The notes below the pieces were generated by a model that was given only the letters and a program-made list of their open reading frames with translations, was not told the origin of the DNA and made no database searches. From Hyphomicrobium sp. (lineage in GTDB: Bacteria; Pseudomonadota; Alphaproteobacteria; Rhizobiales; Hyphomicrobiaceae), in the NCBI GenBank assembly GCA_003987725.1, contig RXJH01000001.1, positions 372,001-436,000 on the forward strand: 64,000 nucleotides of DNA, in the 5' to 3' direction. Each line of letters opens with the position of its first letter. Position 1 is the first letter of the stretch. Shown here piece after piece: positions 3,805 through 24,743 of this stretch. Made by a program: the position numbers and the translations under genes.

Positions 3805-4494
3805 CTACCAATTCTTCCCGATCTTCGGCGCAGCGACCGACCGGTCGCCTAATCTTTGGCCTGCCATCTCAGGCAGGTGGTCAATCGCGATACGCATGAG
3901 TTCAGGAAGCGATTTGACGCCGAGTTTCGCTTTGATCTGCGAGCAGGTGTTGGCGATCGTCTTGTAGCTGACGTTAAGCTCCTCGGCGATTGCCGTGTAC
4001 TGCTTGCCTTGAGCGATCAGCTCCAGCGTCTGAAGCTCGCGCAGCGTCATCACACTCAATGGATTGGTCCGGCCTTTCGTTTCCATCACGGCGATGGCTG
4101 ATGCGATCGCGTGGCTCAGAAAAGGCTTGCCCTGACGGACGGCCTGCAGCGCCTTGACGATGTCGACAGAGGACGTGTCCTTCAGAATGTAACCGTTGGC
4201 GCCGAGCCGCAGCGACTGGCTGGCGATCATCGGATCTTCGTGCATCGTCAGCACGAGGATTGGCGTGTGCTTGTCGTGGACCCGAAGCCGCCTGATGAAG
4301 GTCAGCCCGACAAGAATCCCCTTCTTGATCGCGAGATCGATGATGATCACGTCAGGAGTTTCTTGTCGATAGGCGCGGAATCCTTCGATCAGATTGGAAG
4401 CGAGCGTAATGTCGACGATGCCCGCGTCTTCCAAAACCCGGCGGCAGCCCTGGAGAACGATCGGATGGTCGTCGATAACGAGAATTTTGGTCAT
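3805..4494 (-). CDS. mxaX: NarL/FixJ-type response regulator, MxaX-like
   Basis: A 229-residue regulator. The receiver domain (about 1-120) has the acidic pair in VIDDHPIV and the phosphoacceptor Asp in VIIIDLAIKKG. The LuxR-type HTH is about 155-215 (LRELQTLELIAQGKQYTAIAEELNVS). Its start overlaps the kinase stop by four bases. In Paracoccus denitrificans the moxZYX genes lie upstream of and divergent from the methanol dehydrogenase operon and activate it; order and orientation here are the same. I infer that this protein, phosphorylated by the adjacent kinase, activates mxaF. A different NarL-type target is possible. Confidence 0.82.
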   Translation of the reverse strand: MTKILVIDDHPIVLQGCRRVLEDAGIVDITLASNLIEGFRAYRQETPDVIIIDLAIKKGILVGLTFIRRLRVHDKHTPILVLTMHEDPMIASQSLRLGANGYILKDTSSVDIVKALQAVRQGKPFLSHAIASAIAVMETKGRTNPLSVMTLRELQTLELIAQGKQYTAIAEELNVSYKTIANTCSQIKAKLGVKSLPELMRIAIDHLPEMAGQRLGDRSVAAPKIGKNW

Positions 4495-5975: not shown

Positions 5976-5979
5976 AACC

Positions 5980-6540
5980 TCAGCCCCCCGTGCCGTAGTG
6001 CTTCGAGAGTTCGTCGAAGGCACGCTCTCGGCTCAAGCCGGCCTTTCGCATGTTGTAGTATTGCTGTCCCGCTGCGCCGAAACTCTCGATGCGTCCCGGC
6101 GCGACCGCTTTAGTCAGCCCGCCAATCAGCACGCTTGCGGTTTCATCGCTCCCTTCGTCTTTCAGCATCTGCTCGAGCTGAACGGCGCGGTTAGCGATCA
6201 TCCGCGGGGAATCCTTGAATCGGGCCGACGCTTCCGCGAGCGACTGACGAAGTTTATCAGCATCGTCCGGCAGGAGCTTCGCGCCCGATTTCATTTCACG
6301 CGCGATCAACCAATCTCCCGGGGCAGTCTCGTCCTGCATCGAGAGCCAGTCCGTTTGCTCGACTTTGGTGAGACCGGATTTCTTTTCGCTGCTTTGCTGA
6401 CGCGGCTGCTCGTCGCCACAGCCAGAAAGAAGCAATGCGAGAATAATTCCTGACAGCCGCAGAGTTGCCGGTACCGAGATCACGTTGGTGATGCTTTCAA
6501 AGCTGATTGGGCCTGACGCGGTGACATATGGCAGACGCAC
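5980..6540 (-). CDS. mxaZ: Lipoprotein at the MxaZ position of the mxaZYX unit
   Basis: A protein of up to 186 residues with a lipobox (LALLLSGC) directly after a hydrophobic stretch, so it is a likely membrane-anchored periplasmic lipoprotein. The rest is helical and charged. The full frame starts with GTG at 6540. A GTG at 6483 would give a more typical short lipoprotein signal peptide and may be the true start. It is first in the minus-strand unit ahead of the kinase and response regulator, the place held by mxaZ in Paracoccus. The name rests on position rather than on a motif. It may tune the sensor kinase from the periplasm. Confidence 0.6.
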   Translation of the reverse strand: MRLPYVTASGPISFESITNVISVPATLRLSGIILALLLSGCGDEQPRQQSSEKKSGLTKVEQTDWLSMQDETAPGDWLIAREMKSGAKLLPDDADKLRQSLAEASARFKDSPRMIANRAVQLEQMLKDEGSDETASVLIGGLTKAVAPGRIESFGAAGQQYYNMRKAGLSRERAFDELSKHYGTGG

Positions 6541-6835: not shown

Positions 6836-8731
6836 ATGGGCATGAAAAAAGTCGTTGGCACATCGATGCTGATGTCGGCGTCCTGCATGGCGATCGCAGT
6901 CGCGCTGCAGCTGGGCGTTGCATCCAGCGCTCACGCAAATGACAAGCTTATCGAGCTGTCGAAGAGCAAAGACAACTGGGTAATGCCGGGCCGGAACTAC
7001 GACTCGAACAACTACAGCGAAGACACTCAAATCAACACGGATAACGTCAAGCAGTTGAAGCACGCTTGGTCGTTCTCGACCGGCCAGCTCCACGGCCATG
7101 AGGGTGCTCCTCTCGTCGTCGACGGCATTATGTACGTTCACACCTCTTTCCCGAACAAAACGTTTGCTCTCGACCTCAATGACCCGGGTCATATCCTCTG
7201 GCAGCACAGCCCGAAGCAAGATCCTGCAGCTCGCTCGGTTGCTTGCTGCGATCTCGTGAACCGCGGTCTCGCCTATTGGCCGGGTGACGGCAAGATCCCG
7301 GCTCTGATCATCAAGACGCAGCTCGACGGCCATCTCGTTGCACTCAATGCAAAGACGGGCGAAGAGTACTGGAAGGTTGAAAACGCTGACATCAAAGTCG
7401 GCCAGACCGAAACTCAGGCTCCCTACGTCGTGAAGGACATCGCGATCGTCGGTTCGTCGGGTGCGGAACTTGGTGTTCGCGGTTACACGACCGCTTATAA
7501 TATCAAGACCGGCGAAATGCTTTGGCGGAAGTACGCCACGGGCCCGGACAACGAAGTCGGCATTGGCGACGATTTCAACAGCGCCAACCCGCACTACGGC
7601 CAGAAGGGTCTCGGAACGGCAACCTGGGAAGGCGACGCCTGGAAGATCGGCGGCGGCACCAACTGGGGCTGGTATGCTTACGATCCAGCTGTGAACCTCA
7701 TCTATTACGGGTCGGGCAACCCCGCTCCGTGGAACGAAACAATGCGTCCGGGCGACAACAAGTGGACCATGACGATCATGGCCCGCGATGCCGACACCGG
7801 TCAGCTTAAGTTCGGCTATCAGAAGACGCCCCACGACGAATGGGACTTTGCAGGCGTCAACGTCATGATGCTCTCCGAGCAGAAGGACAAGGATGGCAAG
7901 GCTCGCAAGCTTCTGACCCATCCGGATCGCAACGGCATCGTCTATACGCTTGATCGTGAAAACGGCGACCTGATCTCGGCTAACAAGCTCGACGATACGG
8001 TCAACGTGTTCAAAACGGTGGACCTCAAGACCGGTCTCCCTGTCCGCGATCCGGAATATGGCACGCGTATGGATCACAAGGCGACGGAAGTCTGCCCGTC
8101 GGCCATGGGCTACCATAACCAGGGCCACGACTCCTACGATCCGACCAAGCAGTTGTTCTTCATGGGCATCAACCACATCTGCATGGACTGGGAGCCCTTC
8201 ATGCTTCCGTACCGCGCAGGCCAGTTCTTCGTTGGCGCAACGTTGTGGATGTACCCTGGTCCGAAGGGCGACCGTCAGAACTATCTGGGTCTCGGTCAGA
8301 TCAAGGCCTACAACGCCATCACCGGCGAATATAAGTGGCAGCACATGGAGCGCTTCTCGGTCTGGGGCGGCACGCTCGCGACCGCAGGCAACCTTGTGTT
8401 CTACGGAACGCTCGATGGCTTCATCAAGGCTCGTAACTCCGACACTGGCGAACTGCTTTGGAAGCACAAGCTGCCTTCAGGCGTAATCGGCTACCCGATG
8501 ACGTATGAGCACAACGGCGTCCAATACATCGCGATCATGTCGGGTGTGGGCGGTTGGCCGGGCGTCGGTCTGGTGTTCGACCTTCAGGATCCGACGGCTG
8601 GTCTCGGTGCGGTCGGCGCCTTCAAGAACCTTCAGAACTACACGCAGATGGGCGGCAGCGTCGAAGTGTTCTCGCTGGATGGCAAGAACCCCTATGACGA
8701 CGTGAACGTCGGCGAGTACTCGAAGGGCTAA
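6836..8731 (+). CDS. mxaF: Methanol dehydrogenase large subunit (PQQ, calcium type)
   Basis: It oxidises methanol to formaldehyde in the periplasm with PQQ and passes electrons to cytochrome cL. It is 631 residues, with a signal peptide of 34 (cleavage AHA-NDKL). The vicinal disulfide over PQQ is Cys137-Cys138, positions 103/104 of the mature protein. The catalytic Asp is mature 303 in [10 protein letters not shown]. The residue two places later is Ala, not the extra Asp of lanthanide XoxF enzymes, so this is the calcium MxaF type. The W-docking propeller pattern (GKIxAL-like blades, LWKHKLPSG) runs throughout. It is first in the operon and followed by a strong hairpin, in line with very high expression. 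Confidence 0.98.
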
Positions 8732-8951: not shown

Positions 8952-9860
8952 ATGAGTTGCCCACTCCCAAAAGATCATCGCAGCGGCCGCATATTCACGA
9001 GCGTCCAGCTCTCGGCGGCAATTGGCATAACGGCCTTCGCAATTGTTTCAGCTGGCCCCTTGCGCTCCGAGCAAGCGGCTGCACCTGCCGCCGGCGATGC
9101 GTCGACGCTTCGGATCTGCGCGGCAGCGAAAGAGCTGCCCTACTCGGCCAGCGATAAATCAGGCTTTGAAAACAAGATCGCCGAAACTCTCGCCACTGCG
9201 ATGGGACGCAAAGTGGAGTTCGTCTGGTCGGACAAAGCGGCGATCTACGCCGTGCGCGATCAATTGGACAAAAAGCTTTGCGATGTCGTTATTGGCGTAG
9301 ACACCGGCGATGAACGGGTCTTGACCTCGCGTGCATACTATCGCGCGCCTTACGTCTTTGTTCAGCGCAAGGATTCTCCGCTGAAGATCGTTGACTGGGA
9401 TAGCCCCGATCTCGCGAAGGCTCATCCGATCGGCTTCGTACAGGGAAGTCCCGCCGAAGTCATGATCACCAAACTCGATCTCTACAATGACAACATCAAC
9501 TACGTCTCGTCACTGACGAACTTCAAAGACAAGCGAAACGCATACACGCGCATCCCGCCTGAGCGCATGGTTGGCGAGGTCGCCGACAAGACTGCAGCTC
9601 TTGCCGTTGCATTCGCCCCTGAGGTCGCTCGCTATGTCAAAGCCAATGACGCCCTGAAAATGGTGGTCATTCCGGACAACAACGTTCGCTCGGATGGACT
9701 GCGTGTGCCGCATCACTTCGATCAGTCCTTTGCAGTCCGGAAAGACGACAAGGATCTCCTTGCCGCCATCGATGCGGCTTTGCCGAAGGCCCAGGCACAG
9801 ATCGAGACGATCTTGAAAGACGAAGGCGTCCCCTACGTGCCGCCGACGCCGCGTACATAA
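8952..9860 (+). CDS. mxaJ: MxaJ, periplasmic methanol dehydrogenase accessory protein
   Basis: A 302-residue protein with an N-terminal signal region (about 18-38) and a periplasmic solute-binding fold of family 3 (LRICAAAKELPYS, then RDQLDKKLCDVVIGVDTGDE, and a second lobe with HPIGFVQGSP). MxaJ is the third component co-made with MxaF and MxaI and is needed for active methanol dehydrogenase. A GAAAGG lies 11 bases upstream of the ATG. It sits between mxaF and mxaG as in all known mxa operons. Confidence 0.95.
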   Translation: MSCPLPKDHRSGRIFTSVQLSAAIGITAFAIVSAGPLRSEQAAAPAAGDASTLRICAAAKELPYSASDKSGFENKIAETLATAMGRKVEFVWSDKAAIYAVRDQLDKKLCDVVIGVDTGDERVLTSRAYYRAPYVFVQRKDSPLKIVDWDSPDLAKAHPIGFVQGSPAEVMITKLDLYNDNINYVSSLTNFKDKRNAYTRIPPERMVGEVADKTAALAVAFAPEVARYVKANDALKMVVIPDNNVRSDGLRVPHHFDQSFAVRKDDKDLLAAIDAALPKAQAQIETILKDEGVPYVPPTPRT

Positions 9861-9913
9861 TTCGTTTCGGCGGTGGTCGCCGGTGTTCAAGGGAAGTGGA
9901 AGAGAAATCACAT

Positions 9914-10495
9914 ATGAAATTTGCGGTTATGGCAGCGGGGATTGTTGTCTGGACATTGGTGGCGGGCGGACAAGCGGCGTTCGCACAGCAAGACTTTAGA
10001 AACACCGTTACCGGTGATGTGCTCGACGTCGATGGCGTCGCTCCAAAGGAAGGCAGAGATACGCCGGCGGTCAAGAAGTTCCTCGAGACTGGCGTGGACC
10101 CCTACGTCGAAGTTACCGGATGCCTTCCAAAGGGTGAGGAGATTTACCTCGAATCCTGCTCTGGCTGCCATGGGCACATCGGCGAAGGCAAGGTCGGACC
10201 TGGTCTCAACGATGCCTATTGGACGTATCCGAAAAACACGACGGACAAGGGCATTTTCGAGACGATCTTCGGAGGCGCGCAAGGGATGATGGGGCCGCAC
10301 GGCCAAGATCTCGAGCTCGATAACATGCTCAAGCTCATCGCCTGGATCCGGCATATCCAGAAGGATGACGTCAAGGACGCCGATTGGCTGACGCCGGAGC
10401 AGAAAAAGACATTCAAGCCATTCCACATCGAGGAATGGGAAAAGACGGGCCGCGCGGCTGCGCAAAAGGAGCAATGCAAGATTTCCGGAAACTAG
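9914..10495 (+). CDS. mxaG: Cytochrome cL, electron acceptor of methanol dehydrogenase
   Basis: A 193-residue class I c-type cytochrome with a signal peptide of about 24 residues (AAFA-QQDF). The haem site is Cys82-Ser-Gly-Cys85-His86, and a Met ligand lies in the GMMGPHGQ loop. Cytochrome cL takes electrons from PQQ in MxaF and passes them to a cytochrome cH. The ATG at 9914, ten bases after a GGAAGAG, is preferred over an in-frame start at 9896. It is followed closely by mxaI. Confidence 0.95.
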   Translation: MKFAVMAAGIVVWTLVAGGQAAFAQQDFRNTVTGDVLDVDGVAPKEGRDTPAVKKFLETGVDPYVEVTGCLPKGEEIYLESCSGCHGHIGEGKVGPGLNDAYWTYPKNTTDKGIFETIFGGAQGMMGPHGQDLELDNMLKLIAWIRHIQKDDVKDADWLTPEQKKTFKPFHIEEWEKTGRAAAQKEQCKISGN

Positions 10496-10596
10496 CACAA
10501 CAACCGACGAGGCGATGTCTCGTAGGTTGGCTGGTACGGGAACAACAAGGGTGAGTGAAGCCACCCGATCGTAAATAGAAAAATGGAGGAAAGCCT

Positions 10597-10902
10597 ATGA
10601 AGACGATTGCACTCCCATTGGTCGCCGGCACTGTCCTTGCTTTTGCAGGTCTTGCTGGAGCTATGGCGCCGGCAGCTCTTGCTTACGACGGCACGCACTG
10701 CAAGGCGTCGGGAAATTGCTGGGAACCGAAGCCTGGTTTCCCGGAAAAGATTGCGGGCTCGAAGTACGATCCGAAGCACGATCCGAAAGAACTGGCCAAG
10801 CAGGGCACCTCGATGAAGGCGGCGGAAGAGCGCAACAAGCTGCGTGCCGATAACTTCAAGAAGACCGGCAAGTGGGTCTACGACGTATCGAAGATCCAGT
10901 AG
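10597..10902 (+). CDS. mxaI: Methanol dehydrogenase small subunit
   Basis: A 101-residue precursor with a 29-residue signal peptide (AALA-YDGT), giving a mature 72-residue, Lys-rich helical protein as usual for MxaI. Mature Cys6 and Cys12 match the known disulfide. It wraps around MxaF in the alpha2-beta2 enzyme. A strong ribosome binding site (GGAGGAAAGCCT then ATG) fits high expression. Confidence 0.97.
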   Translation: MKTIALPLVAGTVLAFAGLAGAMAPAALAYDGTHCKASGNCWEPKPGFPEKIAGSKYDPKHDPKELAKQGTSMKAAEERNKLRADNFKKTGKWVYDVSKIQ

Positions 10903-10971
10903 GCAGAGCCGAAACTAATCCTCGGATCTTGCTACGCTTGCAGGACCACAACTTCCTCTCCGAGGTAACTG

Positions 10972-10993
10972 GGGTGCTGTTTCGGCAGCACCC
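10972..10993 (+). terminator. Hairpin with U-rich tail after mxaI
   Basis: An 8-bp perfect stem (GGGTGCTG / CAGCACCC) with a 6-base loop, followed by TCCTTTTTAGG. It looks like an intrinsic terminator or attenuator that separates the abundant structural messages (mxaFJGI) from the low-level maturation genes starting at mxaR. Confidence 0.75.
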
Positions 10994-11066
10994 TCCTTTT
11001 TAGGTTGTGAAATGACGTCCTGCCGTTCGGCCGGCCGGAGCTCGTCATGTTTGGGAAGCAACAACA

Positions 11067-12125
11067 ATGAATCGCCCAACCCTTGACCGGCCAGATACAG
11101 ACGACAACATCGGACCGCTCGATCTCGATGACTGGCGCAGTTGCGCTTTGGATTTCGAACGCGAGATTGCGAAGGCAGTCGTCGGCCAAGCGCGCGCCAT
11201 CCGATTGTTGACCATCGCCGTTTTTGCACGTGGCCACGTTTTGCTAGAGGGCGATGTCGGCGTCGGCAAGACGACGCTTCTCAGGGCGGTCGCTCGCGCA
11301 CTCGGCGGCGCCTATGAGCGCATCGAAGGCACGATCGATCTGATGCCTTCCGACATGATCTACTACACGTTTCTCAATGAGGACGGGAAGCCGCGCGTCG
11401 AGCCCGGTCCGGTGCTGCGCCACGGCAGCGATCTCTCCGTTTTCTTCTTCAACGAGATCAACCGCGCACGCCCGCAGGTGCATTCACTCCTCCTCAGATT
11501 GATGGCCGAACGCAGCATCACGGCTTTCAATCAGGAGCATGTGTTCCCGTATCTGCTGGTCTTCGCGGATCGCAACCGCATCGAGCGCGAAGAAACATTC
11601 GAACTCCCCGCTGCCGCGAGGGACCGCTTTTTGATGGAAGTGGCCATCGCGACGCCAACGGATGAAAAATCGCGGCGCGAGCTTGTTTTTGCGACAAAGT
11701 TCCACGACGTCGATACGCTGATCGCGTCGCTCAAGGACGGTGTGCTCGACTATCGGCGGCTCAACACACTCGCCGACGTCATCCAGAACACGATCATCGT
11801 GAGTTCCGCTCTCGAGCGCTATGTTCTCGACCTCTGGAAAGCCATTCGCGAGCCAGCGTCGGCGGGCATTCAGATCGCCAATGTCGACATAACCCGGCTG
11901 ATCGCGGGTGGGTCGAGCCCCCGCGGCATGAGCTATCTCATTCGCGCGGCGCGCGTCTCTGCTTGGCTTTCCGGCCGCGACATGGTCGTGCCCGAAGATA
12001 TTCGGGACATTTTCCACGAGTGCATGGCGCATCGCATATTCCTCACGCCCGTCTACGAGCTGAGGCGCGAGGAAATCGTACGATCCCTGATCGCTGATGT
12101 CTTTGCCAAGGTCCCGGCGCCATGA
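11067..12125 (+). CDS. mxaR: MxaR, MoxR-type AAA+ ATPase
   Basis: A 352-residue AAA+ ATPase of the MoxR family, which the methanol operon named. The Walker A motif is residues 62-69 (GDVGVGKTT) and the Walker B region is VFFFNEINRARPQ; the C-terminal lid has the MoxR pattern GSSPRGMSYLIRAAR. With the DUF58 and vWA proteins that follow, it is thought to drive metal insertion or assembly of methanol dehydrogenase. The frame overlaps mxaS by four bases. Confidence 0.94.
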   Translation: MNRPTLDRPDTDDNIGPLDLDDWRSCALDFEREIAKAVVGQARAIRLLTIAVFARGHVLLEGDVGVGKTTLLRAVARALGGAYERIEGTIDLMPSDMIYYTFLNEDGKPRVEPGPVLRHGSDLSVFFFNEINRARPQVHSLLLRLMAERSITAFNQEHVFPYLLVFADRNRIEREETFELPAAARDRFLMEVAIATPTDEKSRRELVFATKFHDVDTLIASLKDGVLDYRRLNTLADVIQNTIIVSSALERYVLDLWKAIREPASAGIQIANVDITRLIAGGSSPRGMSYLIRAARVSAWLSGRDMVVPEDIRDIFHECMAHRIFLTPVYELRREEIVRSLIADVFAKVPAP

Positions 12126-12979
12126 ACGATGAGGCGAAAGATCTCGCGTATAGCATCCCTTGGCGAACGAGCGGCATTCGCGTGGGTTCGCACAAGAGCT
12201 TCCTGTCGGGAAGCGGTGGTTTATTTCGCGATATCGTGCCGTTGTCGACCTTTCCCGATCCGCGGCGTATCGCCATTCGTGCATCGCTCAGCGATCCGTT
12301 CGAACGGCTTCTAGTCCGCCGGGCCGAGCAGCCGAGTGCTATCGACATCGCCGTCCTAGTCGACGTTTCTGCGTCGATGGCATTCGAAGGCAAGTGCGAT
12401 AAGATTGCTCTTGCGGCGGATATCGCTCAAGCCTTGGCCATCTGTACTGAGCGCGCCGGCGATACCTTTGCGCTCTATCCGTTCGACAAGGTTCTTCGGC
12501 AAGATCTTCTGCTGCGCAAGACTTTGTCACGAGCCGCGCACGCTGATGCTGTCGAACGCCTTCGTCAGTTCGCGCCCGATCAATCCGGTGTCGAGGGCTT
12601 GGCTGAAGCAGGCGCCGCAATAGCAGGATCAAAAAAGCTCGTTTTTCTAATTTCGGATTTCTTATGGCCGCAGGAAGCGGCGCGGACGGCGACAGAGGTG
12701 CTCGCTTTCCACGACATCGTTCCGATCGAGATCAGGGACAGCCTCGAACTCGACGGTCTTCCCGATTGGGGCCTTCTCAATCTCAGAGATCTTGAAACCG
12801 GACGGTATCGGCTCGTGGCCATGAGACCGACCCTCAAGGCCCGGTGGCGCGCGCAGAGAAGCGAGCAGCGCCAACGCATTACTCAGGCGTTACACGCGAC
12901 ATCACGCGAGACGTTCACCATCAGCGATAAAATCGACTGGATGCGGTTCACATCGTTTCTGCTGCATGGAGCGGCCTGA
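12122..12979 (+). CDS. mxaS: MxaS, DUF58 protein
   Basis: A 285-residue cytoplasmic DUF58 protein with a vWA-like core: VLVDVSASMAF resembles a MIDAS motif and VFLISDFLWP a second strand. DUF58 proteins pair with MoxR ATPases. Its start overlaps the mxaR stop and its stop overlaps the mxaA start (TGATG). Its role is in maturation of methanol dehydrogenase, by homology and position. Confidence 0.92.
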   Translation: MNDEAKDLAYSIPWRTSGIRVGSHKSFLSGSGGLFRDIVPLSTFPDPRRIAIRASLSDPFERLLVRRAEQPSAIDIAVLVDVSASMAFEGKCDKIALAADIAQALAICTERAGDTFALYPFDKVLRQDLLLRKTLSRAAHADAVERLRQFAPDQSGVEGLAEAGAAIAGSKKLVFLISDFLWPQEAARTATEVLAFHDIVPIEIRDSLELDGLPDWGLLNLRDLETGRYRLVAMRPTLKARWRAQRSEQRQRITQALHATSRETFTISDKIDWMRFTSFLLHGAA

Positions 12980-13959
12980 TGCGGATATGGCTCGCCATTG
13001 CATTCCTCCTTCTGAGCGTCGGAGGAAGCTCAGCTGCCATCGATGCCGTCAACGTCTATGAGCCGCGCAAGTTCGGGCACTTCCTCGGCGACACGTTGGA
13101 GCGACGGGTTGAAGTCATAACGAGCGGCAACACCGAACTTTTCACTGCAGCGCTGCCGCGGCCGGGAGCCCTCACGTATTGGCTGGATCTCATCTCCATC
13201 GATCATAGCGAGCGCGAAGAGAACGGGCGCAGGATTTACGACATCACGTTGAAGTACCAGATTTTCTATTCGGCGCTCGAGGCCAAGCAGCTCGATATTC
13301 CCTCCTTTCCACTGCGGTTCAAGCACCCGAACAGCGTCGCACCCGACGGCACAGCGCCCAGCGAACCGTCCGACGCTTCTCAGCCGGGCAATTATACCGC
13401 GACGGTTCCAGCGCTCCGGTTGGTGATTTCTCCTCTCCGCGACATCGTCCTCGATGATTTGATGCCGGAGAAGACCGGCGACATCTCCGACGTCATGCGG
13501 CCGGATGCCGTTCCCCAAGAGATAAACCTGGTTCCGAGGGAACGGCTGCTCTGGGTTTCTGCGGGCGCGCTCGCCGCTTCAGTTATCCTGTTGCTCTGGC
13601 ATTATGCGATCTGGCCCTTCGCACGCCGCGCCAAGCGCCCGTTCACGCAAGCCGATCGACAAATCCGGAGCCTTCAGTCTGCGGGAGCGGGCGACGCTCC
13701 CTATCGCGACTCTCTGCTCATTCTCCATCGTGCGTTCGACCAATCCGCCGGGCGCCGGGTCTTTGCAGCGGACGTTCCGGAATTCGTTGCACAACATCAG
13801 CGCTTCTCGAGCCTGCTGCCGAGCCTCAAGTCGTTCTTTGAAAGCTCTCAGCTTTATTTCTTCTCGGATGATCGGCGTGCAGCCGAAGACCGCTTTCCGA
13901 TAAGCGACCTGGCACGGCTCGCCGCCGACCTTGCACGCGAGGAGAGGTCGGCGGCATGA
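12979..13959 (+). CDS. mxaA: MxaA, maturation protein
   Basis: A 326-residue protein with a signal peptide (about 1-20), a periplasmic beta-rich domain, a membrane helix (about 191-209, LLWVSAGALAASVILLLW) and a cytoplasmic tail of about 110 residues. MxaA, MxaK and MxaL are required for calcium insertion into methanol dehydrogenase in Methylorubrum. It overlaps both neighbours by one to four bases. Confidence 0.9.
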   Translation: MRIWLAIAFLLLSVGGSSAAIDAVNVYEPRKFGHFLGDTLERRVEVITSGNTELFTAALPRPGALTYWLDLISIDHSEREENGRRIYDITLKYQIFYSALEAKQLDIPSFPLRFKHPNSVAPDGTAPSEPSDASQPGNYTATVPALRLVISPLRDIVLDDLMPEKTGDISDVMRPDAVPQEINLVPRERLLWVSAGALAASVILLLWHYAIWPFARRAKRPFTQADRQIRSLQSAGAGDAPYRDSLLILHRAFDQSAGRRVFAADVPEFVAQHQRFSSLLPSLKSFFESSQLYFFSDDRRAAEDRFPISDLARLAADLAREERSAA

Positions 13960-14960
13960 TCTTTACGAATCCGATTGCGCTCTATCTTTTACCACTCGCA
14001 CTCATTCCGCTCTTTCTCGGGGTGCAGCGACAGGAACCCTACCCCTCCCTCTCCGGCCTCGAGCCAGACCGGCTCTCCCTCGCGATAAGCTGGGCACTCC
14101 GCATCGCAGGCGTTGCCGCAATTGCTGGTCTTATCCTCGGCATGGCCGGTGTCGCGTTGCGCGAACGGACCATCGAGCGCTTCGGTCAAGGCGCGCATAT
14201 CGTTCTGCTGATTGATCGCTCGGCGAGTATGAACGACACCTTTGCCGGTAGACAGCCGAGCGGTGCGGAAGAATCCAAATCGTCTGCCGCTAAGCGACTG
14301 ATCAAGGAATTCGTCGTCGAGCGCGAGCACGACCGGTTCGGGGTTGCCGCGTTTTCGACGGCTCCGATGCACGTCGTGCCGATCACTGATCACAAGGATA
14401 TCGTGCTCAACGCCATCGATGCGATCGATCGGCCGGGGCTCGCCTTCACGGACGTCGGACGCGGCCTTGCGATGGCGCTCAGCATGATCGAAGAAGATGT
14501 GCTGCAAGGCTCCCGGGCGATCGTACTCGTTTCCGACGGTGTGGCGGTGGTGGGACGAAAAATCCAAGATGCGCTTAGAACCGAATTCGCGCGCAGACCG
14601 GTGCATCTCTATTTTGTTTATCTGCGGACCGAGGGCTCCAACAGCATGTTTGCGGAGCCCGCTCCCGGCGTCGAGGACACGCCGCAGGCACTGCCGGAGC
14701 GTCACCTGAATAAATTCTTCCAGAGCTTGCGCATTCCCTATCACGCCTATGAGGCCGAGAACGCGGAAGCAATCAAGAGCGCCATCACCGATATCGGCAA
14801 GCTTGAGCAGACGCCGCTCGTCTACAACGAACGCATCCCACAGTACGATTTGTCCCGCTGGGCCTATGTGCTGGCTGCGCTGGCTCTCGGTCTTCTGCTC
14901 GCGGCAAAGCTTTGCGAGCGCACTCTCAAGCATCCGGGAGCGCCAAGCCATGCGGCTTAA
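13956..14960 (+). CDS. mxaC: MxaC, von Willebrand A membrane protein
   Basis: A 334-residue BatA/BatB-like protein: two N-terminal membrane helices (about 6-20 and 46-68), a vWA domain with the MIDAS motif LLIDRSASMND, and a C-terminal helix (about 298-316). It probably forms a membrane complex with MxaL and the MxaR ATPase. It starts four bases inside mxaA, and the mxaK start lies 11 bases inside its end. Confidence 0.92.
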   Translation: MIFTNPIALYLLPLALIPLFLGVQRQEPYPSLSGLEPDRLSLAISWALRIAGVAAIAGLILGMAGVALRERTIERFGQGAHIVLLIDRSASMNDTFAGRQPSGAEESKSSAAKRLIKEFVVEREHDRFGVAAFSTAPMHVVPITDHKDIVLNAIDAIDRPGLAFTDVGRGLAMALSMIEEDVLQGSRAIVLVSDGVAVVGRKIQDALRTEFARRPVHLYFVYLRTEGSNSMFAEPAPGVEDTPQALPERHLNKFFQSLRIPYHAYEAENAEAIKSAITDIGKLEQTPLVYNERIPQYDLSRWAYVLAALALGLLLAAKLCERTLKHPGAPSHAA

Positions 14961-15531
14961 TTCGATCTGGACGTTCCTCGCTTCACAGCGCGGTTCAGCA
15001 TTTTGGCTCCTGGCTGCTGCGAGCGTGCTGTGGTTCGGATACGCGGCGGAGAATTTGATTTACGCCAAGCGCACGAACGAGAACATCCGCCTGCTCGTCA
15101 GCCGTCACGACGTTCCGGTCGACATTAAACGTGCGCATCCGCAAGAACTGCTGGCGCGCATCGATGAGTCCGTGCGCCGCGATCACATCGATGACGCGCA
15201 ATCGATCCTAAGCATCGCAGGAGATCGACTTCCTCCGCCCGTGCGCGCGGCCGCGCTTTACAATATCGCCAATACCAGGACCCGACTGGCGGCGGAGGCC
15301 GTCCGCAGAGGCGACATCGACAGCGCCACGGCTATGATCAATCTCGCAAAGTCAGAATACCGGCTCGCACTGAAGCTCGACTCCGAGAACTGGGACGCGC
15401 GGCACAATCTTGATGTTGCGATGCGCGTCGTTCGCGATTTTCCTCCGGGCGACAATCCGGATCTTTCCTCGCCCGACGCGCCGAAGAAACTATGGACGGA
15501 TCTTCCCGGCATCCCAAAGGGATTGCCATGA
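14950..15531 (+). CDS. mxaK: MxaK, membrane-anchored maturation protein
   Basis: A 193-residue protein with one N-terminal membrane helix (about 17-33) and a helical periplasmic part (PPPVRAAALYNIANTRTR, TPR-like), matching MxaK. It is needed for calcium loading of MxaF. The ATG at 14950 lies inside the mxaC end, as in other coupled pairs of this operon. Confidence 0.9.
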   Translation: MRLNSIWTFLASQRGSAFWLLAAASVLWFGYAAENLIYAKRTNENIRLLVSRHDVPVDIKRAHPQELLARIDESVRRDHIDDAQSILSIAGDRLPPPVRAAALYNIANTRTRLAAEAVRRGDIDSATAMINLAKSEYRLALKLDSENWDARHNLDVAMRVVRDFPPGDNPDLSSPDAPKKLWTDLPGIPKGLP

Positions 15532-16520
15532 ACTTCATGGGCGTCAACTTCGACCGGCGCATGCTGTTGCTGCTTGGCGCGCTGGCTGCGACGATCGTGG
15601 CAATCATCGGCATTCACATCATTCGTAATCAGCGCGTCGCTGACGTCCTCGCCGTCGTCGATATCACGGGTAGCATGAATACGCGGGACATGGGCAATCC
15701 TCGCGGATCGCAGAACCGCTTGGAAGCGGCGCGCCAGGCCCTCATTGATATGATGCAGGATCTCCCGTGCCAATCGCGGCTCGGCCTCGGCATTTTTTCC
15801 GAACGGATTTCATACCTGCTGCTCGATCCCGTTGAGATCTGCGGCAACTATGATGCACTCGAAGGCGCCGTTTCTGGACTTGACTGGCGCATGGCCTGGC
15901 AAGGCGACAGCTTCATTGCCAAAGGGCTCTATTCTGCAATCGACATTGCATCGAGTCTGAAATCCGACCTGATCTTCCTCACCGATGGTCATGAGGCGCC
16001 GCCGCTTCCATTTACCGGTGTACCGGAGTTCGACGGCAAGCCCGGCGCGGTGAAGGGACTGATCGTCGGCGTCGGCGGCAGCGATAAGACGCCGATCCCG
16101 AAGTACGACGACGAGGGCCGCCAGATCGGCGTCTACAATGAATCGGACGTTCCGCAGGACAATCGCATCGGGGCGGCGCCAAAGGATGCCGAAACCCGCG
16201 AAGGTTACAATCCGAGGAACGCTCCGTTCGGCGCGTTGCCCGCTACCGGCGATGAGCAGCTGTCATCCGTCAAGACTGCGCATTTGGAAGATCTCGCTTC
16301 CCGTACGGGTCTCACCTATGTCGAACTGCAAAACGTCAGTGCGATAGCGCCCAAGCTTTTATCGTCCACCGAACCGCGCATTGTTCCCGTCAACACAGAC
16401 ATGGCCTACGTGCCCGCGCTGTTTGCGCTTTTGTCGATGCTCGCACTTTACGCACTGCAGCTGTTCGAAGGCACACCGGCGCGTCGCAGCCGAAGCCGCA
16501 CCTCCCCTCTTGTAAATTAG
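15528..16520 (+). CDS. mxaL: MxaL, von Willebrand A membrane protein
   Basis: A 330-residue protein with an N-terminal helix (about 10-29), a vWA domain with the MIDAS motif VVDITGSMNTRD, and a C-terminal helix (about 294-312). It is the partner of MxaC in the maturation complex. The ATG at 15528 overlaps the mxaK stop (ATGA), so the earlier in-frame ATG is not used. Confidence 0.92.
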   Translation: MNFMGVNFDRRMLLLLGALAATIVAIIGIHIIRNQRVADVLAVVDITGSMNTRDMGNPRGSQNRLEAARQALIDMMQDLPCQSRLGLGIFSERISYLLLDPVEICGNYDALEGAVSGLDWRMAWQGDSFIAKGLYSAIDIASSLKSDLIFLTDGHEAPPLPFTGVPEFDGKPGAVKGLIVGVGGSDKTPIPKYDDEGRQIGVYNESDVPQDNRIGAAPKDAETREGYNPRNAPFGALPATGDEQLSSVKTAHLEDLASRTGLTYVELQNVSAIAPKLLSSTEPRIVPVNTDMAYVPALFALLSMLALYALQLFEGTPARRSRSRTSPLVN

Positions 16521-16542
16521 ACCCTCAAAGGAGCATTCGTGC

Positions 16543-17085
16543 ATGCCCATTCCGTTTCGTCTTCTTCTTGCATTTGCGGCCTTATCGGCTTGCGCGGGTA
16601 TCGCTTCGGCCCACGGACCGACGCCTCAGAAGGTTGAAGAGAAGATCGCGATCTCGGTCCCGCCGGACGCCGTCTGGAAACTGATCAAGGACTTCGGAAG
16701 CATCGGCGCGTGGCATCCATCCGTCGCGAGCGCGAAAAGCGAAGGCGGCAACGCAAGCGGCGCGACACGCACGTTTACACTGAAGAGCGGCGGCGGCGAG
16801 CTCGTCGAAAGCCTCGACGACTATCAAGAGAAAGACATGTCGTACGGCTACCGGCTTGCGACCGAAAATGACGAAGCTTTCCCGGCAAGCTTCTATTCCG
16901 ATACGATCCAAGTTGTACCGGCGTCCGGCGGCAGTGAGGTCGTATGGGGCTCGCGCTTCTATCGCGCGGACACCACAAACGAGCCGCCTGAAAACAAGAA
17001 CGACGAAGCCGCGATCAAGGCGACCGAAGATTTCATCAAGGCCGGGCTTGCCGGCATCAAGGCGAAAGCCGAGGGCAAGGGATGA
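16543..17085 (+). CDS. mxaD: MxaD, periplasmic SRPBCC protein
   Basis: A 180-residue exported protein (signal peptide to about residue 23, ASA-HGPT) with a START/SRPBCC-like domain: VPPDAVWKLIKDFGSIGAWHP is the typical first strand and helix. MxaD raises the rate of methanol dehydrogenase and cytochrome cL interaction. The gene starts 22 bases after mxaL behind an AAAGGAG and overlaps the next start by four. Confidence 0.92.
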   Translation: MPIPFRLLLAFAALSACAGIASAHGPTPQKVEEKIAISVPPDAVWKLIKDFGSIGAWHPSVASAKSEGGNASGATRTFTLKSGGGELVESLDDYQEKDMSYGYRLATENDEAFPASFYSDTIQVVPASGGSEVVWGSRFYRADTTNEPPENKNDEAAIKATEDFIKAGLAGIKAKAEGKG

Positions 17086-18047
17086 AAGCCCTCGTAGGCC
17101 TTGCCACCGCTGTCGTGTTCAGTGCTGTTGCCCTTGCGGGCGCAACAGCAGCGACCGATGCGGAGCAGAAGGTCTACGTTCTCAGCCAGGACGATGGCGT
17201 GCTTTCCGTAATCGACACCGGAGCGGATGAGATTGTCGGCAAAATCAAAATTGCCGGCAAGCCCGCGTCCTTCACAATCAGCCCCGCTTTCGGCGAAGCG
17301 TTCGCGACACTTCCCGACAGCGGAGAAATTGCCGTTGTCGATCTTCGCCTGCAGAGGCTTGCCCGGCGTCTCAAGATCGGTGGCCAGCCCTTCGGCATAG
17401 CAAGCGCCGGCGACCGGCTTTTCGTTGGAGACTGGAGCGCAAACTCCGTATCGATCGTCGACCGGCAATCGGGCGATATCATTGGAAAGATATCCGCGGG
17501 CCGTTCGCCGGCCCATCTCGTCGTTACGCGCGATGGATCCAGGTTGTACGTCGCCGATCGCGAGGCAAACAGCGTCGCGGTCATCGACACGCGGCGTCTC
17601 GAAGTGCTGAAGGAAATTCCGGTCGGGCGCGCGCCCTTTGCCCTGGCCCTAAGCCTCGATGAAAAGCAACTCGTCGTCGCCAACGTCCAAGCCGCGACGC
17701 TGTCGATCGTCGATACCTCAAATCTTCAAATCGTGTCGTCGCCGACGACACGCGCGATGCCGTACGGCGTTGCGATGACGCACGATGGTGCCGAAATCCT
17801 CGTCTCCAACCAACAGGGAGGGAGCATTTCGGTCTTCGACGCCCAGACGCATGCACCCCGCGCCGAAATCAAGGTCGGACGCTATCCCGAGGGTTTGGTG
17901 GCACTGAAGAATGGGAGCAAAGCTTATGTCGCGAACTGGTTTTCAGCGAGCGTTTCAGTTCTGGATCTCAAGACCAATACTGAAATTAAGCGCATCATTT
18001 GTCCCGAAGGTCCACGAATGGTTCTGGCCGGTGCGACGGAACGCTAA
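17082..18047 (+). CDS. mxaE: Periplasmic YVTN beta-propeller protein, MxaE-like
   Basis: A 321-residue protein with a signal peptide (about 1-24) and seven roughly 40-residue blades with the YVTN-type pattern (KVYVLSQDDGVLSVIDT, RLYVADREANSVAVIDT, KAYVANWFSASVSVLDL). Such propellers often accompany PQQ or c-type cytochrome systems. It follows mxaD with a four-base overlap, the place of mxaE in Methylorubrum. The name is by position and fold type and is less certain than for the upstream genes. Confidence 0.75.
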   Translation: MKALVGLATAVVFSAVALAGATAATDAEQKVYVLSQDDGVLSVIDTGADEIVGKIKIAGKPASFTISPAFGEAFATLPDSGEIAVVDLRLQRLARRLKIGGQPFGIASAGDRLFVGDWSANSVSIVDRQSGDIIGKISAGRSPAHLVVTRDGSRLYVADREANSVAVIDTRRLEVLKEIPVGRAPFALALSLDEKQLVVANVQAATLSIVDTSNLQIVSSPTTRAMPYGVAMTHDGAEILVSNQQGGSISVFDAQTHAPRAEIKVGRYPEGLVALKNGSKAYVANWFSASVSVLDLKTNTEIKRIICPEGPRMVLAGATER

Positions 18048-19062
18048 CCGCCTTCTCGTACGGATTGCGGCAGCGGCGGCGCTCGCGACAACGGGCCAAT
18101 CCGCGCTCCTCGCCTCCGCGAATGAGGGACTGAACGATCTCTGCTCGCCGACCAGCGTCCTCTACGAGATCGATCATAACAACCGGCCGCGCCTCGAAAA
18201 GATTCTCGACGATGCCAGTCGCGTCGCAAACGGCGAGGCCGTGCTGTGGCGGGTCGAGAAACCTGGCACGCCGGCCTCTTTCCTTTTCGGAACGCTTCAC
18301 GTCATCAACGATAGCCTGCAGGAAATCTCTGCGGCGACACGAGCTGCTATCGATCAATCGAAAATCGTCGCCGTCGAGTCCGCGGAAACATCACGGAGTG
18401 CTTACTCTGACGCGATGGCGCAAGCGGCGCCGCTCATGGTCTCCATGGACAAGGAACTTCAAAATATCCTGGCCGAGGATGAAATCACCGTCGTCGAGAA
18501 GGCCATCACGAATGCGGGATATGCGCCGCAGCTTGCTCTCGCGCTGAAGCCGTGGGTGGCCATCATGTTTCTCGCGGATTCCGCGTGTCAGAAGAAGCTT
18601 CAAGAACGCGGATCGAAATCGATGGATGCGCTTGTCGTCGATCGGGCGACCGCAAATGGCCTGCCGGTCGTCGGTCTCGAGACGATGCTGGAGCAGTACC
18701 GATCGCTCGCGATGATCTCGCAGAAAGTGCAGGTCGCGTGGCTGAAGGCAAGCATCGAGCTCTACCCGCGCGTCGACGACGTATCGTTGACCATGGCCGA
18801 GCTCTATCGCTTCCGGCGTCTCGATGCCGTTTGGCCGCTGACGCAGGAATTGGCCCCGGCCGCGGGACTGGACGATGCGACCTTGTCGTCTCTGCGGTTC
18901 GAACTTGTCGGCAAGCGCAACTTGCGAATGTTGGAAAGCGCGTTGCCATTGTTCGAGAGCGGCGGCGCTTTCGTCGCTATCGGCGCCATGCATCAAACCG
19001 GATCTGATGGTCTCGTTGCGCTGCTCCGTCAGAGAGGCTTCACAGTGACAGCAATCGAATGA
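18031..19062 (+). CDS. TraB/GumN-family exported protein
   Basis: A 343-residue protein with a signal peptide and the TraB/GumN fold marks: FLFGTLHVIND near the start, and the C-terminal FESGGAFVAIGAMHQTGSDGLVALLRQRGF with the conserved GxxH. The family is related to Tiki metalloproteases, but activity is not established in bacteria. I chose the GTG at 18031, inside the end of the propeller gene, because it gives a clean signal peptide. No ATG is suitable. It is coupled to the next gene (ATGA). It lies where mxaH-type genes occur, but I cannot confirm that identity. Confidence 0.8.
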   Translation: MRRNANRLLVRIAAAAALATTGQSALLASANEGLNDLCSPTSVLYEIDHNNRPRLEKILDDASRVANGEAVLWRVEKPGTPASFLFGTLHVINDSLQEISAATRAAIDQSKIVAVESAETSRSAYSDAMAQAAPLMVSMDKELQNILAEDEITVVEKAITNAGYAPQLALALKPWVAIMFLADSACQKKLQERGSKSMDALVVDRATANGLPVVGLETMLEQYRSLAMISQKVQVAWLKASIELYPRVDDVSLTMAELYRFRRLDAVWPLTQELAPAAGLDDATLSSLRFELVGKRNLRMLESALPLFESGGAFVAIGAMHQTGSDGLVALLRQRGFTVTAIE

Positions 19063-19427
19063 GGTTCATGGTGACATTTACGCGAAGCATAGTCGCGACA
19101 GTCGTTCTCACAGCTCTGGCGGTTAGCGTGGCGCCGATCGTTCCGGGCATGACGACTTCTGCTTTTGCCGAAAAATTCTGCGGTCCCGATACGCAAAGCG
19201 GCGAGGCATCCGGCAAGACCGAAACTGAAGCAACGGATGCCGCTACGGCATGGTGGTCGTCGCGCGCAGGTTCGCTCGGCAAGGGCTACGAATTCTGGGA
19301 CGAGGCTAAGGACAAGAACGTGAGCTGCCATCCGGGCCCGTTCGGCACGGTCAAATGCAAAGCCTCCGGCAAGCCTTGCCTGCGCGAAGGGCTACTGCCC
19401 GACGACGGAAAACGGCAAGATCTTTGA
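19059..19427 (+). CDS. Small exported cysteine-containing protein, last gene of the mxa unit
   Basis: A 122-residue protein with a signal peptide (about 1-37, SAFA-EKFC). The mature part of about 85 residues has four Cys (FCGPDT, VSCHP, VKCKASGKPC) and an Ala/Thr/Trp-rich helix (TEATDAATAWWSSRAGSL). It is coupled to the TraB/GumN gene by ATGA. Function unknown. Position suggests a role linked to methanol oxidation or calcium/metal handling. Confidence 0.72.
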   Translation: MRFMVTFTRSIVATVVLTALAVSVAPIVPGMTTSAFAEKFCGPDTQSGEASGKTETEATDAATAWWSSRAGSLGKGYEFWDEAKDKNVSCHPGPFGTVKCKASGKPCLREGLLPDDGKRQDL

Positions 19428-19436
19428 GCGACAGAT

Positions 19437-19820
19437 CTAAAGCTCGCTGTATGTTTTCGTCGATTGCATGGACCCGAAGTAGGTTCCGGTCCAGCGCTCA
19501 ACTTTTTCGGGCAGAAAAATAAAGCTCTGAACCTTATAAACCACGCCGCCACTCATGACGGTCTGATCGTTCGCGGCGATCGCATGGGCTGGCAGAAAGA
19601 AAGCGCAGGACTGCTTGCCGACGGCCTTGTTGACGGTATTGGCGGCGATTTCTTCGCTGTCACCTGCAGCTTCGCGTTGGAGGAAAGCGACCTGATCGCT
19701 CTTTGCGCCGCAGAAATAACCTGAAACCCGTACGGGATCATCGGCGCGTGCCGTGGCAAAGGCGGAAGCGATGACCGTGGCGAGAAGGCAAGAGGCGCGC
19801 CATATGTTCGTCCAATGCAT
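19437..19820 (-). CDS. Exported hypothetical protein
   Basis: A 127-residue protein with a signal peptide (ATARA-DDPV) and two Cys (YFCGAK, QSCAFF). It is convergent with the end of the mxa operon, only nine bases away. No domain recognised. Composition and signal peptide support a real gene. Confidence 0.65.
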   Translation of the reverse strand: MHWTNIWRASCLLATVIASAFATARADDPVRVSGYFCGAKSDQVAFLQREAAGDSEEIAANTVNKAVGKQSCAFFLPAHAIAANDQTVMSGGVVYKVQSFIFLPEKVERWTGTYFGSMQSTKTYSEL

Positions 19821-20035: not shown

Positions 20036-20440
20036 CTATTCGACGAGAAGCAGGAAAGATTTCCCGGCGTCGGTCGTGAGTTCCTTGTCGTCGAGCGTGC
20101 CGTCGCCATCGGGATCGGCAGCCTTGAAGCGCGCTTCGACTAGCGTCTCGTATTCCTTTTGATCGAGGGTTCCGTCGCTATCGGGATCGGCGGTCTTGAT
20201 AGCAGCTGCATCGACGCGGCCCGAAAGCTCCTTCGCATCGAGAGTGCCGTCTTTGTCAGGGTCCAGCTTCGCGAACACGGCCGCAGCCGCAGTTTTCGCT
20301 TCCTGCAAATCAACTGTCCCGTCTTTATCGGGATCGAGAGCACTCAGAGTCGTGGACGCCGCCAGAAGGGGGCTTGTATAGCTGATGCCTGCGAGTCCAG
20401 CGATGGCGAGGGCGGCAGCGCTCAGTAGTTTCGATTTCAT
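20036..20440 (-). CDS. lanM: Lanmodulin homologue, periplasmic lanthanide-binding EF-hand protein
   Basis: A 134-residue precursor with a signal peptide (about 1-28). It has four EF-hand loops at 36-47, 60-71, 85-96 and 109-120: DPDKDGTVDLQE, DPDKDGTLDAKE, DPDSDGTLDQKE and DPDGDGTLDDKE. Pro at loop position 2, Asp at position 9 and only 12-13 residues between loops are the hallmarks of lanmodulin, which binds lanthanides with picomolar affinity in Methylorubrum extorquens. All four loops start with Asp here, whereas I recall the fourth loop of the M. extorquens protein starting with Asn. A strong AGGAG precedes the ATG. It lies close to the mxa operon and downstream of a NarL-type regulator on the same strand. 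Confidence 0.93.
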   Translation of the reverse strand: MKSKLLSAAALAIAGLAGISYTSPLLAASTTLSALDPDKDGTVDLQEAKTAAAAVFAKLDPDKDGTLDAKELSGRVDAAAIKTADPDSDGTLDQKEYETLVEARFKAADPDGDGTLDDKELTTDAGKSFLLLVE

Positions 20441-20800
20441 TCGAATAAACTCCTCTTGGATTGCTCGCGCCGGTGCGGCATGAACATTCGCGTGCTAACG
20501 GAGGGATAAATTCCCGATACGCGGGACTAGTTGCATGTTAGCAGAGGATAATTTCCAGGCTTAAGGTGATATTTTGGAAGCAAAATCGGGAAAAATTCCC
20601 ATTCCCTTCTTTGTCGCGGAGGGATTCGCCGCCGGATGCGTTCAATATTTAAGAGCTTTCGCTGCTCTCATTGTCCCGCCGCGCATCGTTCAGGCATGGT
20701 CGCCGTCCGGGCTTCGCTGACGGGATTCGAGGATAATCTTTAGAAAACGAGAGTCGCCGGAGATCGTTCGCCCTGAGCGCTCGCCAAGTTGGCGTTACGC
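20441..20800. promoter_or_regulatory. lanM upstream region
   Basis: A 360-base gap between the response regulator gene and lanM, both minus strand. It must contain the lanM promoter unless lanM is read from the regulator. I see no gene and cannot assign a definite operator. Confidence 0.4.
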
Positions 20801-21418
20801 TCAAACGAGCTTTAGCTCGACGGCAATGCGGACCATTTCTGACGACGTGCGCGCGTTGAGCTTTGTGCGCAACATCGCGCAATCGGCCGCGACGGTCTTA
20901 TACGAGACGGAAATATCGTTGGCGATTTCGGCCATGCTGCGCCCCCGGGCCAGCATCCTCAGAACAACATGTTCGCGGTCGCTCAGCAATGCGGTCGTTC
21001 CGCCGGCACGAGATCTGATCAGCGCCATCTCCTGGATAAGGTCATCTGATATCCAGGAACCCCCGCGCGCAACCGCAAGAACGGCATCTCTCAAATCGAA
21101 CGGGTTGCCATTTTTGCTCACATAGCTTTTTGCCCCGCATTCTATTGCCTGAATGGCCAGCATCGGAGTGTCGCTCATCGAGAAAACGACGATCCGAGCG
21201 TTGGGATCATTCGTGACAAATTCGCGGGTGAGGTCGAGGCCAGAGCCATCGGGAAGATTGATATCGATGACGGTGACGTCGGGCGCCTCATCTTTCATCG
21301 CGATGCGTGCTGCGGACGCCGTACGCGCTTCGATCATTGTCACTCCGTCATCTCCGGAAAACAAAGCCCGGCAACCGGAAATGACGATAGGATGATCCTC
21401 GACCACGAGAAGCTTCAC
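20801..21418 (-). CDS. NarL/FixJ-type response regulator, possibly MxaB-like
   Basis: A 205-residue regulator: receiver domain (VVEDHPIVISGC, phosphoacceptor in VTVIDINLPDGSG) and LuxR-type HTH (SDREHVVLRMLARGRSMAEIANDISVSYKTV). It has the same family architecture as the MxaX-like protein at 3.8-4.5 kb but is clearly diverged. In Methylorubrum an orphan response regulator, mxaB, ends the mxa cluster; this gene sits just beyond the cluster but in the opposite direction. No intact kinase adjoins it, only the remnant at 21.5-21.8 kb. It may control lanM and/or mxa genes. MxaB identity is inference. Confidence 0.82.
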   Translation of the reverse strand: MKLLVVEDHPIVISGCRALFSGDDGVTMIEARTASAARIAMKDEAPDVTVIDINLPDGSGLDLTREFVTNDPNARIVVFSMSDTPMLAIQAIECGAKSYVSKNGNPFDLRDAVLAVARGGSWISDDLIQEMALIRSRAGGTTALLSDREHVVLRMLARGRSMAEIANDISVSYKTVAADCAMLRTKLNARTSSEMVRIAVELKLV

Positions 21419-21541
21419 GTTGGCTCGCGCTCACCTTGACTACCAGATTAACTTTGGTTCTAGCGAGCGACGATCGATTATCAATGCCCATTTTTTTGAG
21501 AACTTTTCCCGATTAAATTGCAAACTTTCCCGAGGTCCAGC

Positions 21542-24437: not shown

Positions 24438-24743
24438 TTAGTACTTCTTAGGGCACCAAGATTCCGACGAGGATTTGCATGCCTCGGGGAAGGCCTTCGC
24501 CATTTTCTCCGCCGCAGCCCATTCCTGCTCATCGATGCTGTTGTTCACGTCCACGTCGATCGCGGTAAACGTCGGCGCCGGATCGAGCTTCAGCTTGGCC
24601 ACGTTCGCTTCATACTCCGTGCGGCTGATCGTGCCGCTGCCATCGGTGTCGAGTATCTTGAAATTGTCAGCCCAGCTGCCGGCGACGGCGGCTGTTCCCG
24701 AAAGCAGTAGAAACGAAGCGAAAGCGACCCATTTTTTGGTCAT
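24438..24743 (-). CDS. Exported two-EF-hand protein
   Basis: A 101-residue protein with a signal peptide (about 1-21). EF loop 1 is 32-43 (DTDGSGTISRTE), canonical for calcium. Loop 2 is 63-74 (DVDVNNSIDEQE), which lacks the central Gly and may bind weakly. Two Cys lie in the tail (EACKSS, SWCPKKY). Loops lack the Pro of lanmodulin, so this is a separate family. It may buffer periplasmic calcium. Confidence 0.8.
   Translation of the reverse strand: MTKKWVAFASFLLLSGTAAVAGSWADNFKILDTDGSGTISRTEYEANVAKLKLDPAPTFTAIDVDVNNSIDEQEWAAAEKMAKAFPEACKSSSESWCPKKY

Follow-up and report, generated by a model that had tools for sequence, protein, structure and literature searches.

A Mex-type lanmodulin gene beside the mxa cluster of Hyphomicrobium sp. 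and candidate palindromic operators in its promoter and that of an adjacent response regulator gene

Among proteins of solved structure, the nearest by sequence to the protein considered here is the lanmodulin (LanM) of Methylorubrum extorquens AM1 (Mex-LanM; 6mi5, 8fns), in which four EF-hand loops, each having Pro as its second residue and Asp as its ninth, are spaced 12, 13 and 12 residues apart. In PMC10232371, a spacing of 12-13 residues is given as a hallmark of LanM. Loop 4 of Mex-LanM opens with Asn and binds weakly, as the first-pass annotation of the present DNA had correctly stated. Replacement of this residue (N108D, yielding LanND) raised the Gd stoichiometry from ~2.2 to ~3.8 and made binding tighter (PMC11561317). 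By contrast, Hans-LanM of Hansschlegelia quercus (8dq2, 8fnr) shares the LanM fold and only 31-35% identity, over the aligned part, with the protein described below; its loops 1-3 are reported, in contrast to those of that protein, to open with Asn and to carry Glu at position 9. In AM1, lanM lies in the lut cluster (PMC9260416 and PMC9291206), an arrangement in which it adjoins lutH and the ABC transporter. As for expression, it has been reported that, on methanol, La raised LanM of M. silvestris 39-fold and Mxa proteins fell (PMC9291206), that lanM of M. aquaticum 22A rose 4.25-fold with La (PMC9260416), that lanM of AM1 is not lanthanide-responsive (cited in PMC9291206), that LanM went undetected in M. 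trichosporium OB3b (PMC12482762), and that lanM knock-outs in other species grew without defect (PMC9260416). The lanthanide switch itself is described as involving MxaB and MxaY, a response regulator and a kinase tied to methanol dehydrogenase genes.

The window, namely, the entire stretch of 64,000 nucleotides that was analysed, belongs to a Hyphomicrobium genome of 4.25 Mb and contains, at 20036..20440 (-), an ORF with an ATG start encoding a 134-residue lanmodulin precursor. The product scored 156.8 bits against the LanM model NCBIfam NF053806 (cut-off 135) and matched 6mi5 and 8fns in a PDB sequence search with E values of about 5e-36 (6mi5, 4.9e-36); Mex-LanM ranked above the calmodulins in a profile search as well. 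Given these family scores and E values, a chance origin of the four-loop pattern is excluded. An AlphaFold model built from 24 sequences (mean pLDDT 85.2) yielded the same fold as that of Mex-LanM, with an rmsd of 0.7 Å and a target-normalised TM of 0.96 relative to the Nd-bound structure 8fns. Four structure matches had an E value below 0.001, every one of them a LanM, the NMR structure 6mi5 fitting more loosely (3.9 Å). At the N-terminus, pLDDT was below 50 at residues 1-4 and 6-24; residues 1 to about 28 (20357..20440 (-)) form a probable signal peptide, the boundary of which was placed by eye.

The features by which LanM proteins are recognised were all found, that is, a curated family score and the LanM fold, a length of less than 200 residues with four EF-hand loops, 12-13 residues between adjacent loops, and at least one loop with Pro as its second residue. 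Loop 1 (DPDKDGTVDLQE, 20300..20335 (-)), loop 2 (DPDKDGTLDAKE, 20228..20263 (-)), loop 3 (DPDSDGTLDQKE, 20153..20188 (-)) and loop 4 (DPDGDGTLDDKE, 20081..20116 (-)) each carry Asp at positions 1 and 9 with Pro at position 2, and are separated by 12, 13 and 12 residues. The generic EF-hand Pfam models also match the ORF, as would be expected of an ordinary calcium-binding EF-hand protein, yet such an identity is hardly credible for a sequence that passes the LanM cut-off with this spacing and with Pro at position 2 in every loop, and whose predicted fold matches LanM while calmodulins match poorly. Score, profile search and fold thus place the protein with the known lanmodulins and not with the calmodulins, in keeping with the first-pass annotation, which had named it a lanmodulin with four Asp-start loops at short spacings. 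Judged by sequence and model, it is a Mex-type lanmodulin and an ordinary member of the family. The protein would be exported to the periplasm as a three-helix bundle, with the four EF loops predicted to bind lanthanide(III) ions; lanmodulins are characterised by picomolar affinity for lanthanides and selectivity over Ca. A small protein with two EF-hands is encoded elsewhere in the window (24438-24743 (-)) and scores 22.5 bits against the LanM cut-off of 135; a 63% identical homologue adjoins the lanM-linked regulator of genome G045 (L130, 12527-12832).

Loop 4 of the window protein begins with Asp where Mex-LanM has Asn108, and it had been proposed that four Asp-start loops might alter stoichiometry or selectivity. 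The state of position 1 was accordingly surveyed in 110 LanM proteins, comprising that of the window, 80 loci from a scan of named genomes (the best 80 of 205 relatives) and 29 loci from a family search, with family matches lacking loci left out; removal of 3 rows without four recognisable loops and of 11 duplicates left 96 distinct proteins. All four loops begin with Asp in 51 of the 96, the commonest state in a sample that leans to Mex-like proteins, since sequences of this kind had served to derive the patterns for the scan. As a special trait of this protein, four Asp loops are thus ruled out. Loop 4 opens with Asp in 62 proteins and with Asn in 34, and a tree that rests on few columns requires 10 changes between the two (9-11 over bootstraps). 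Near kin of M. extorquens differ, with Asp in M. zatmanii, M. populi and M. rhodesianum and Asn in Methylobacterium sp. Leaf123. The close kin of the window LanM, with either Asp or Asn at loop 4, offer a ready series for probing this residue. Because loop 4 begins with Asp, four rather than three ions would probably be bound tightly, and because N108D raised Gd binding by Mex-LanM, four strong sites are likely here by analogy. An altered stoichiometry therefore stays plausible, while the supposed distinctiveness of the all-Asp loops does not hold. LanND likewise has Asp at position 1 of all loops; it is an engineered protein, whereas the window LanM is a natural sequence whose four-site binding is predicted, and would be the natural counterpart, from another lineage, of the engineered four-site Mex-LanM. 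Mature LanM sequences identical to those of named records link genome G043 to H. facile and genome G056 to a Hyphomicrobium MAG, and LanM records bearing the name Hyphomicrobium also appear in a second genus group of the family search (G034, G037).

Unlike the lanM of AM1, that of the window lies beside mxa genes and an orphan regulator. mxaF, encoding the large subunit of the Ca-type methanol dehydrogenase, occupies 6836..8731 (+) and is followed by the presumed mxaJ to mxaD part of the cluster (8952..17085 (+)), in the order of the annotated M. nodulans cluster; the mxaD product (16543-17085 (+)) matches Polyketide_cyc2. A YVTN beta-propeller protein is encoded between mxaD and lanM (17082..18047 (+)), as are two small proteins without a Pfam match at 19059-19427 (+) and 19437-19820 (-). 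The latter seems to belong to mxa and not to lanM, as in G043 and G056, whose lanM and mxa genes are on separate contigs, it accompanies mxa. The distance to lanM itself is ~11 kb from the mxaF end and ~3 kb from mxaD, with which the classical mxa genes finish. Divergent from mxaF are genes for a histidine kinase (4491-6023 (-)) and an MxaB-like response regulator, RR3805 (3805-4494 (-)), the latter 47% identical to the regulator at the end of the M. nodulans mxa cluster. This pair (3805-6023 (-)) occupies the same place in several relatives and is a natural candidate for MxaY/MxaB.

In this enzyme family, WDxD marks lanthanide use and the residue that replaces the second Asp in WDFA marks the calcium type. 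Since MxaF of the window reads WDFA where XoxF-type enzymes read WDYD, its earlier description as a calcium-type enzyme lacking the extra Asp is right. XoxF-type enzymes with WDYD are also encoded in the genome (L033, L034, L035, L036, L037 and L040/L041), and PQQ enzymes of different types (L038, L039, L042 and L044) also have Asp at the same place, L043 having given no motif. lut-like genes were found as well, namely for LutH-like receptors (36-45% identity over matched pieces), a LutF-like permease (60-65% in two pieces) and, judged by domain and arrangement only, LutA/LutB-like proteins beside PQQ enzymes on contig C10. The LutH- and LutF-like genes are on contigs C3, C10 and C11 and lanM is on C5, so that lanM is not arranged in a lut cluster. 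One region of C10 (380000-412000; L125, L126) encodes two WDYDG PQQ enzymes, periplasmic-binding and YVTN proteins of the sort seen in lut clusters, kinase/regulator genes and a 92% identical paralogue of the lanM-linked regulator, and a LutH-like receptor gene (L148) directly precedes it. A search of the phage collection returned no match.

The gene adjoining lanM encodes an orphan NarL/LuxR-type response regulator with receiver and GerE domains, RR20801 (20801..21418 (-)). Of the 22 genomes of the genus, 12 passed the LanM cut-off, and RR20801 or its counterpart adjoins lanM in eight of these (window, G041, G043, G045, G048, G052, G053 and G056). RR20801 is 34.7% identical to the M. nodulans mxa-end regulator, inferred from its place to be MxaB, as compared to 46.6% for RR3805. 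That RR20801 is MxaB is ruled out by these identities; the MxaB-like regulator of the window is RR3805, to which the lanM-linked regulator is just 32% identical. When LanM was counted only above the cut-off and the regulator at E values up to 1e-60, 16 of 103 family genomes contained both, 7 LanM only, 4 the regulator only and 76 neither; within the genus, the numbers were 11, 1, 3 and 7 (Fisher 0.006), both sets of counts being uncorrected for relatedness. G054, alone among the LanM-positive genomes of the genus in having no close regulator, encodes the LanM nearest to that of the window (88%, tblastn). In G044, a different regulator lies beside lanM and a close RR20801 homologue is found ~16 kb away. 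A 92% identical paralogue of RR20801 on contig C10 adjoins a HAMP/HisKA_3 kinase with a one-mismatch palindrome, of the kind described below, between the two genes, for which reason this kinase is a candidate partner.

Alignment of 12 lanM upstream regions revealed a conserved block based on the palindrome GGGAA-N3-TTCCC. Three candidate operators precede lanM in the window, all on the minus strand, namely GGGAATTTTTCCC (20588..20600), centred 154 bp before the lanM start codon, TGGAAATTATCCT (20545..20557; 3 of 10 fixed positions off), centred at -111, and GGGAATTTATCCC (20503..20515; 1 of 10 off), centred at -69. The same palindrome with one mismatch, GGGAAAAGTTCTC (21498..21510 (-)), is centred 86 bp before the start codon of the regulator gene. 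In G041 and G044, where lanM sites are also present, a further site near 132 bp before lanM brings the steps to ~21 or 42 bp. With at most one mismatch, the pattern GGGAAWTTATCCY, which was picked after the lanM promoter had been seen, occurs three times in the window, always in the lanM promoter (0.18 expected; none of 100 shuffles had three). With at most two mismatches, the palindrome occurs at chance level in the window (27 vs 29.2 expected). A sigma-70 promoter scan of 20380-20820 found nothing.

Across the 12 loci (262,911 bases), 19 of the 22 palindromes with at most one mismatch fall in lanM or regulator promoters, counts that describe the motif and are no blind test, as it was defined from the same promoters. 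Twelve lie within 200 bp upstream of lanM (10 of 12 loci), seven precede the regulator gene (7 of 8) and three lie elsewhere, including one that precedes xoxF by 76 bp in G041, in which an XoxF-type enzyme (WDYDG) is encoded on the other side of the regulator. The distal site, with at most two mismatches, is present in 10 of the 12 lanM promoters, those of G054 and G049 being the others; G049 has an exact site at -86, and G054 has only sites with at least three mismatches. In G045, the regulator gene is beside lanM, yet the lanM sites are only of the two-mismatch kind, and L133 has no site before the regulator gene.

A scan of terminators flags 20601-20587, and the distal palindrome could accordingly be no more than the stem in an intrinsic terminator that ends transcription of the regulator gene. 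This is very improbable, given that such a scan yields 0.9 hits per shuffled region by chance, that this palindrome also precedes the regulator gene and, in G041, xoxF, and that related sites recur at -111 and -69.

The named loci (the best 80 of 205) provided a partly independent test of the pairing of site and regulator. A site upstream of lanM was found in all seven loci with an RR20801-like regulator, defined as at least 42% identical to RR20801 and closer to it than to RR3805, and in 2 of the 73 others (Fisher 1e-8); five of these seven are genomes of the discovery set, the only new ones being Bradyrhizobium L083 and L115, and related genomes are not independent. L083 and L115 (regulator 42%) repeat the pairing of lanM site and regulator, and in both an exact site also precedes the gene of a PQQ enzyme without the second Asp (WDYT). 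No site was found upstream of lanM in L104, L121 and L123, three of the 73, where the regulator beside lanM is MxaB-like (39-40% identical to RR20801, 53-57% to RR3805).

Beyond these promoters, the exact palindrome is in mild excess in the 22 genus genomes (100 occurrences vs 62 for a reversed control), and for this reason no full regulon is claimed. None of the XoxF promoters tested in the window's own genome (C5, C9, C12 and C10 near 101 kb) holds a site with at most one mismatch, such that the link to xoxF rests on G041; the last of these promoters does contain a near-palindrome, its spacer 4 bases long, and a one-mismatch site lies 309 bp upstream of a PQQ enzyme located farther away on C10. 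Several sites in this genome (e.g., L154, L159, L163, L167, L168 and L169) are without a convincing target gene. Exact palindromes are also found before a TonB-dependent receptor gene (L195, 5936-5948) and before a gene ahead of an RND pump (L196, 6835-6847); these are possible further members of the regulon.

The placement of exact sites directly before such genes as those at L195 and L196 is also what would be seen were the palindromes bound by another factor, such as an iron or stress regulator, with RR20801 a bystander to what would still be a lanmodulin gene. The same could be said of L053 and L054, in which the exact palindrome lies upstream of lanM with no regulator homologue within the stretch examined, although the respective genomes, G037 and G049, hold a homologue elsewhere (54% and 67%). 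Set against this reading are also the site that precedes the regulator gene itself at 7 of 8 loci, the co-occurrence of regulator and LanM in the family genomes (16/7/4/76) and the repeated pairing in Bradyrhizobium L083 and L115. As such, we consider the involvement of another factor rather unlikely and favour RR20801 as the binding protein.

A different explanation would make lanM an accessory of the calcium-enzyme operon, co-regulated with mxa and keeping lanthanide from maturing MxaF. In 8 of the 12 LanM-positive genus genomes, no more than 20 kb indeed separates lanM from the mxa cluster, lanM being on the mxaD side in seven (window, G041, G044, G045, G048, G052 and G053) and on the opposite side in G060, and it adjoins mxa on plasmid pMNOD02 of Methylobacterium nodulans, there with a TonB-dependent receptor and a different regulator (27% identical). 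However, lanM is on the strand opposite to mxa, and its palindrome with at most one mismatch was found in none of eight mxaF promoters tested, a set that left out G041, G045 and G049. Moreover, G043 and G056 have lanM and the regulator with mxa on another contig (in both, as in G049, mxaL and lanM are on different contigs), and G054 has lanM and no mxaL match. An accessory role of this sort is unlikely, then, and control of lanM and mxa through a common operator is ruled out for the eight promoters tested. The palindrome with at most one mismatch is likewise absent from the mxa regions of M. nodulans (L170) and M. aquaticum 22A (L171). Proximity to mxaF had earlier been read as hinting at a role of lanM in the metal switch; such a role has partial support, which comes from the adjacent regulator and the shared candidate operator more than from mxaF.

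RR20801 would instead bind the GGGAA-N3-TTCCC palindromes before lanM and before its own gene, and thereby control both. Lanthanide probably acts as an inducer here, in line with reports on some other species. LanM may buffer or shuttle periplasmic lanthanide in a cell with both Ca-type MxaF and lanthanide-type XoxF. That a Mex-type, four-site LanM is encoded here by a gene controlled by the adjacent orphan response regulator via palindromes is, taken as a whole, the explanation we think probable. We lean, with less assurance, to the broader proposal that in Hyphomicrobium and some Bradyrhizobium a dedicated, autoregulated regulator outside the MxaB clade senses lanthanide status and controls lanM, together with xoxF in at least one species (G041), via an operator ladder with ~21/42-bp steps. 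A palindrome ladder before lanM, found also before the adjacent regulator gene and before xoxF in one relative, is apparently new; no such operator was found in the titles and abstract openings of open-licence papers, of which one, PMC9260416, contains the phrase 'lanM promoter'. If the proposal is true, the ladder is a candidate DNA target of a lanthanide-switch regulator. Should it be confirmed, the regulator/operator pair would provide a defined DNA target for the lanthanide switch, making the regulon searchable by sequence.
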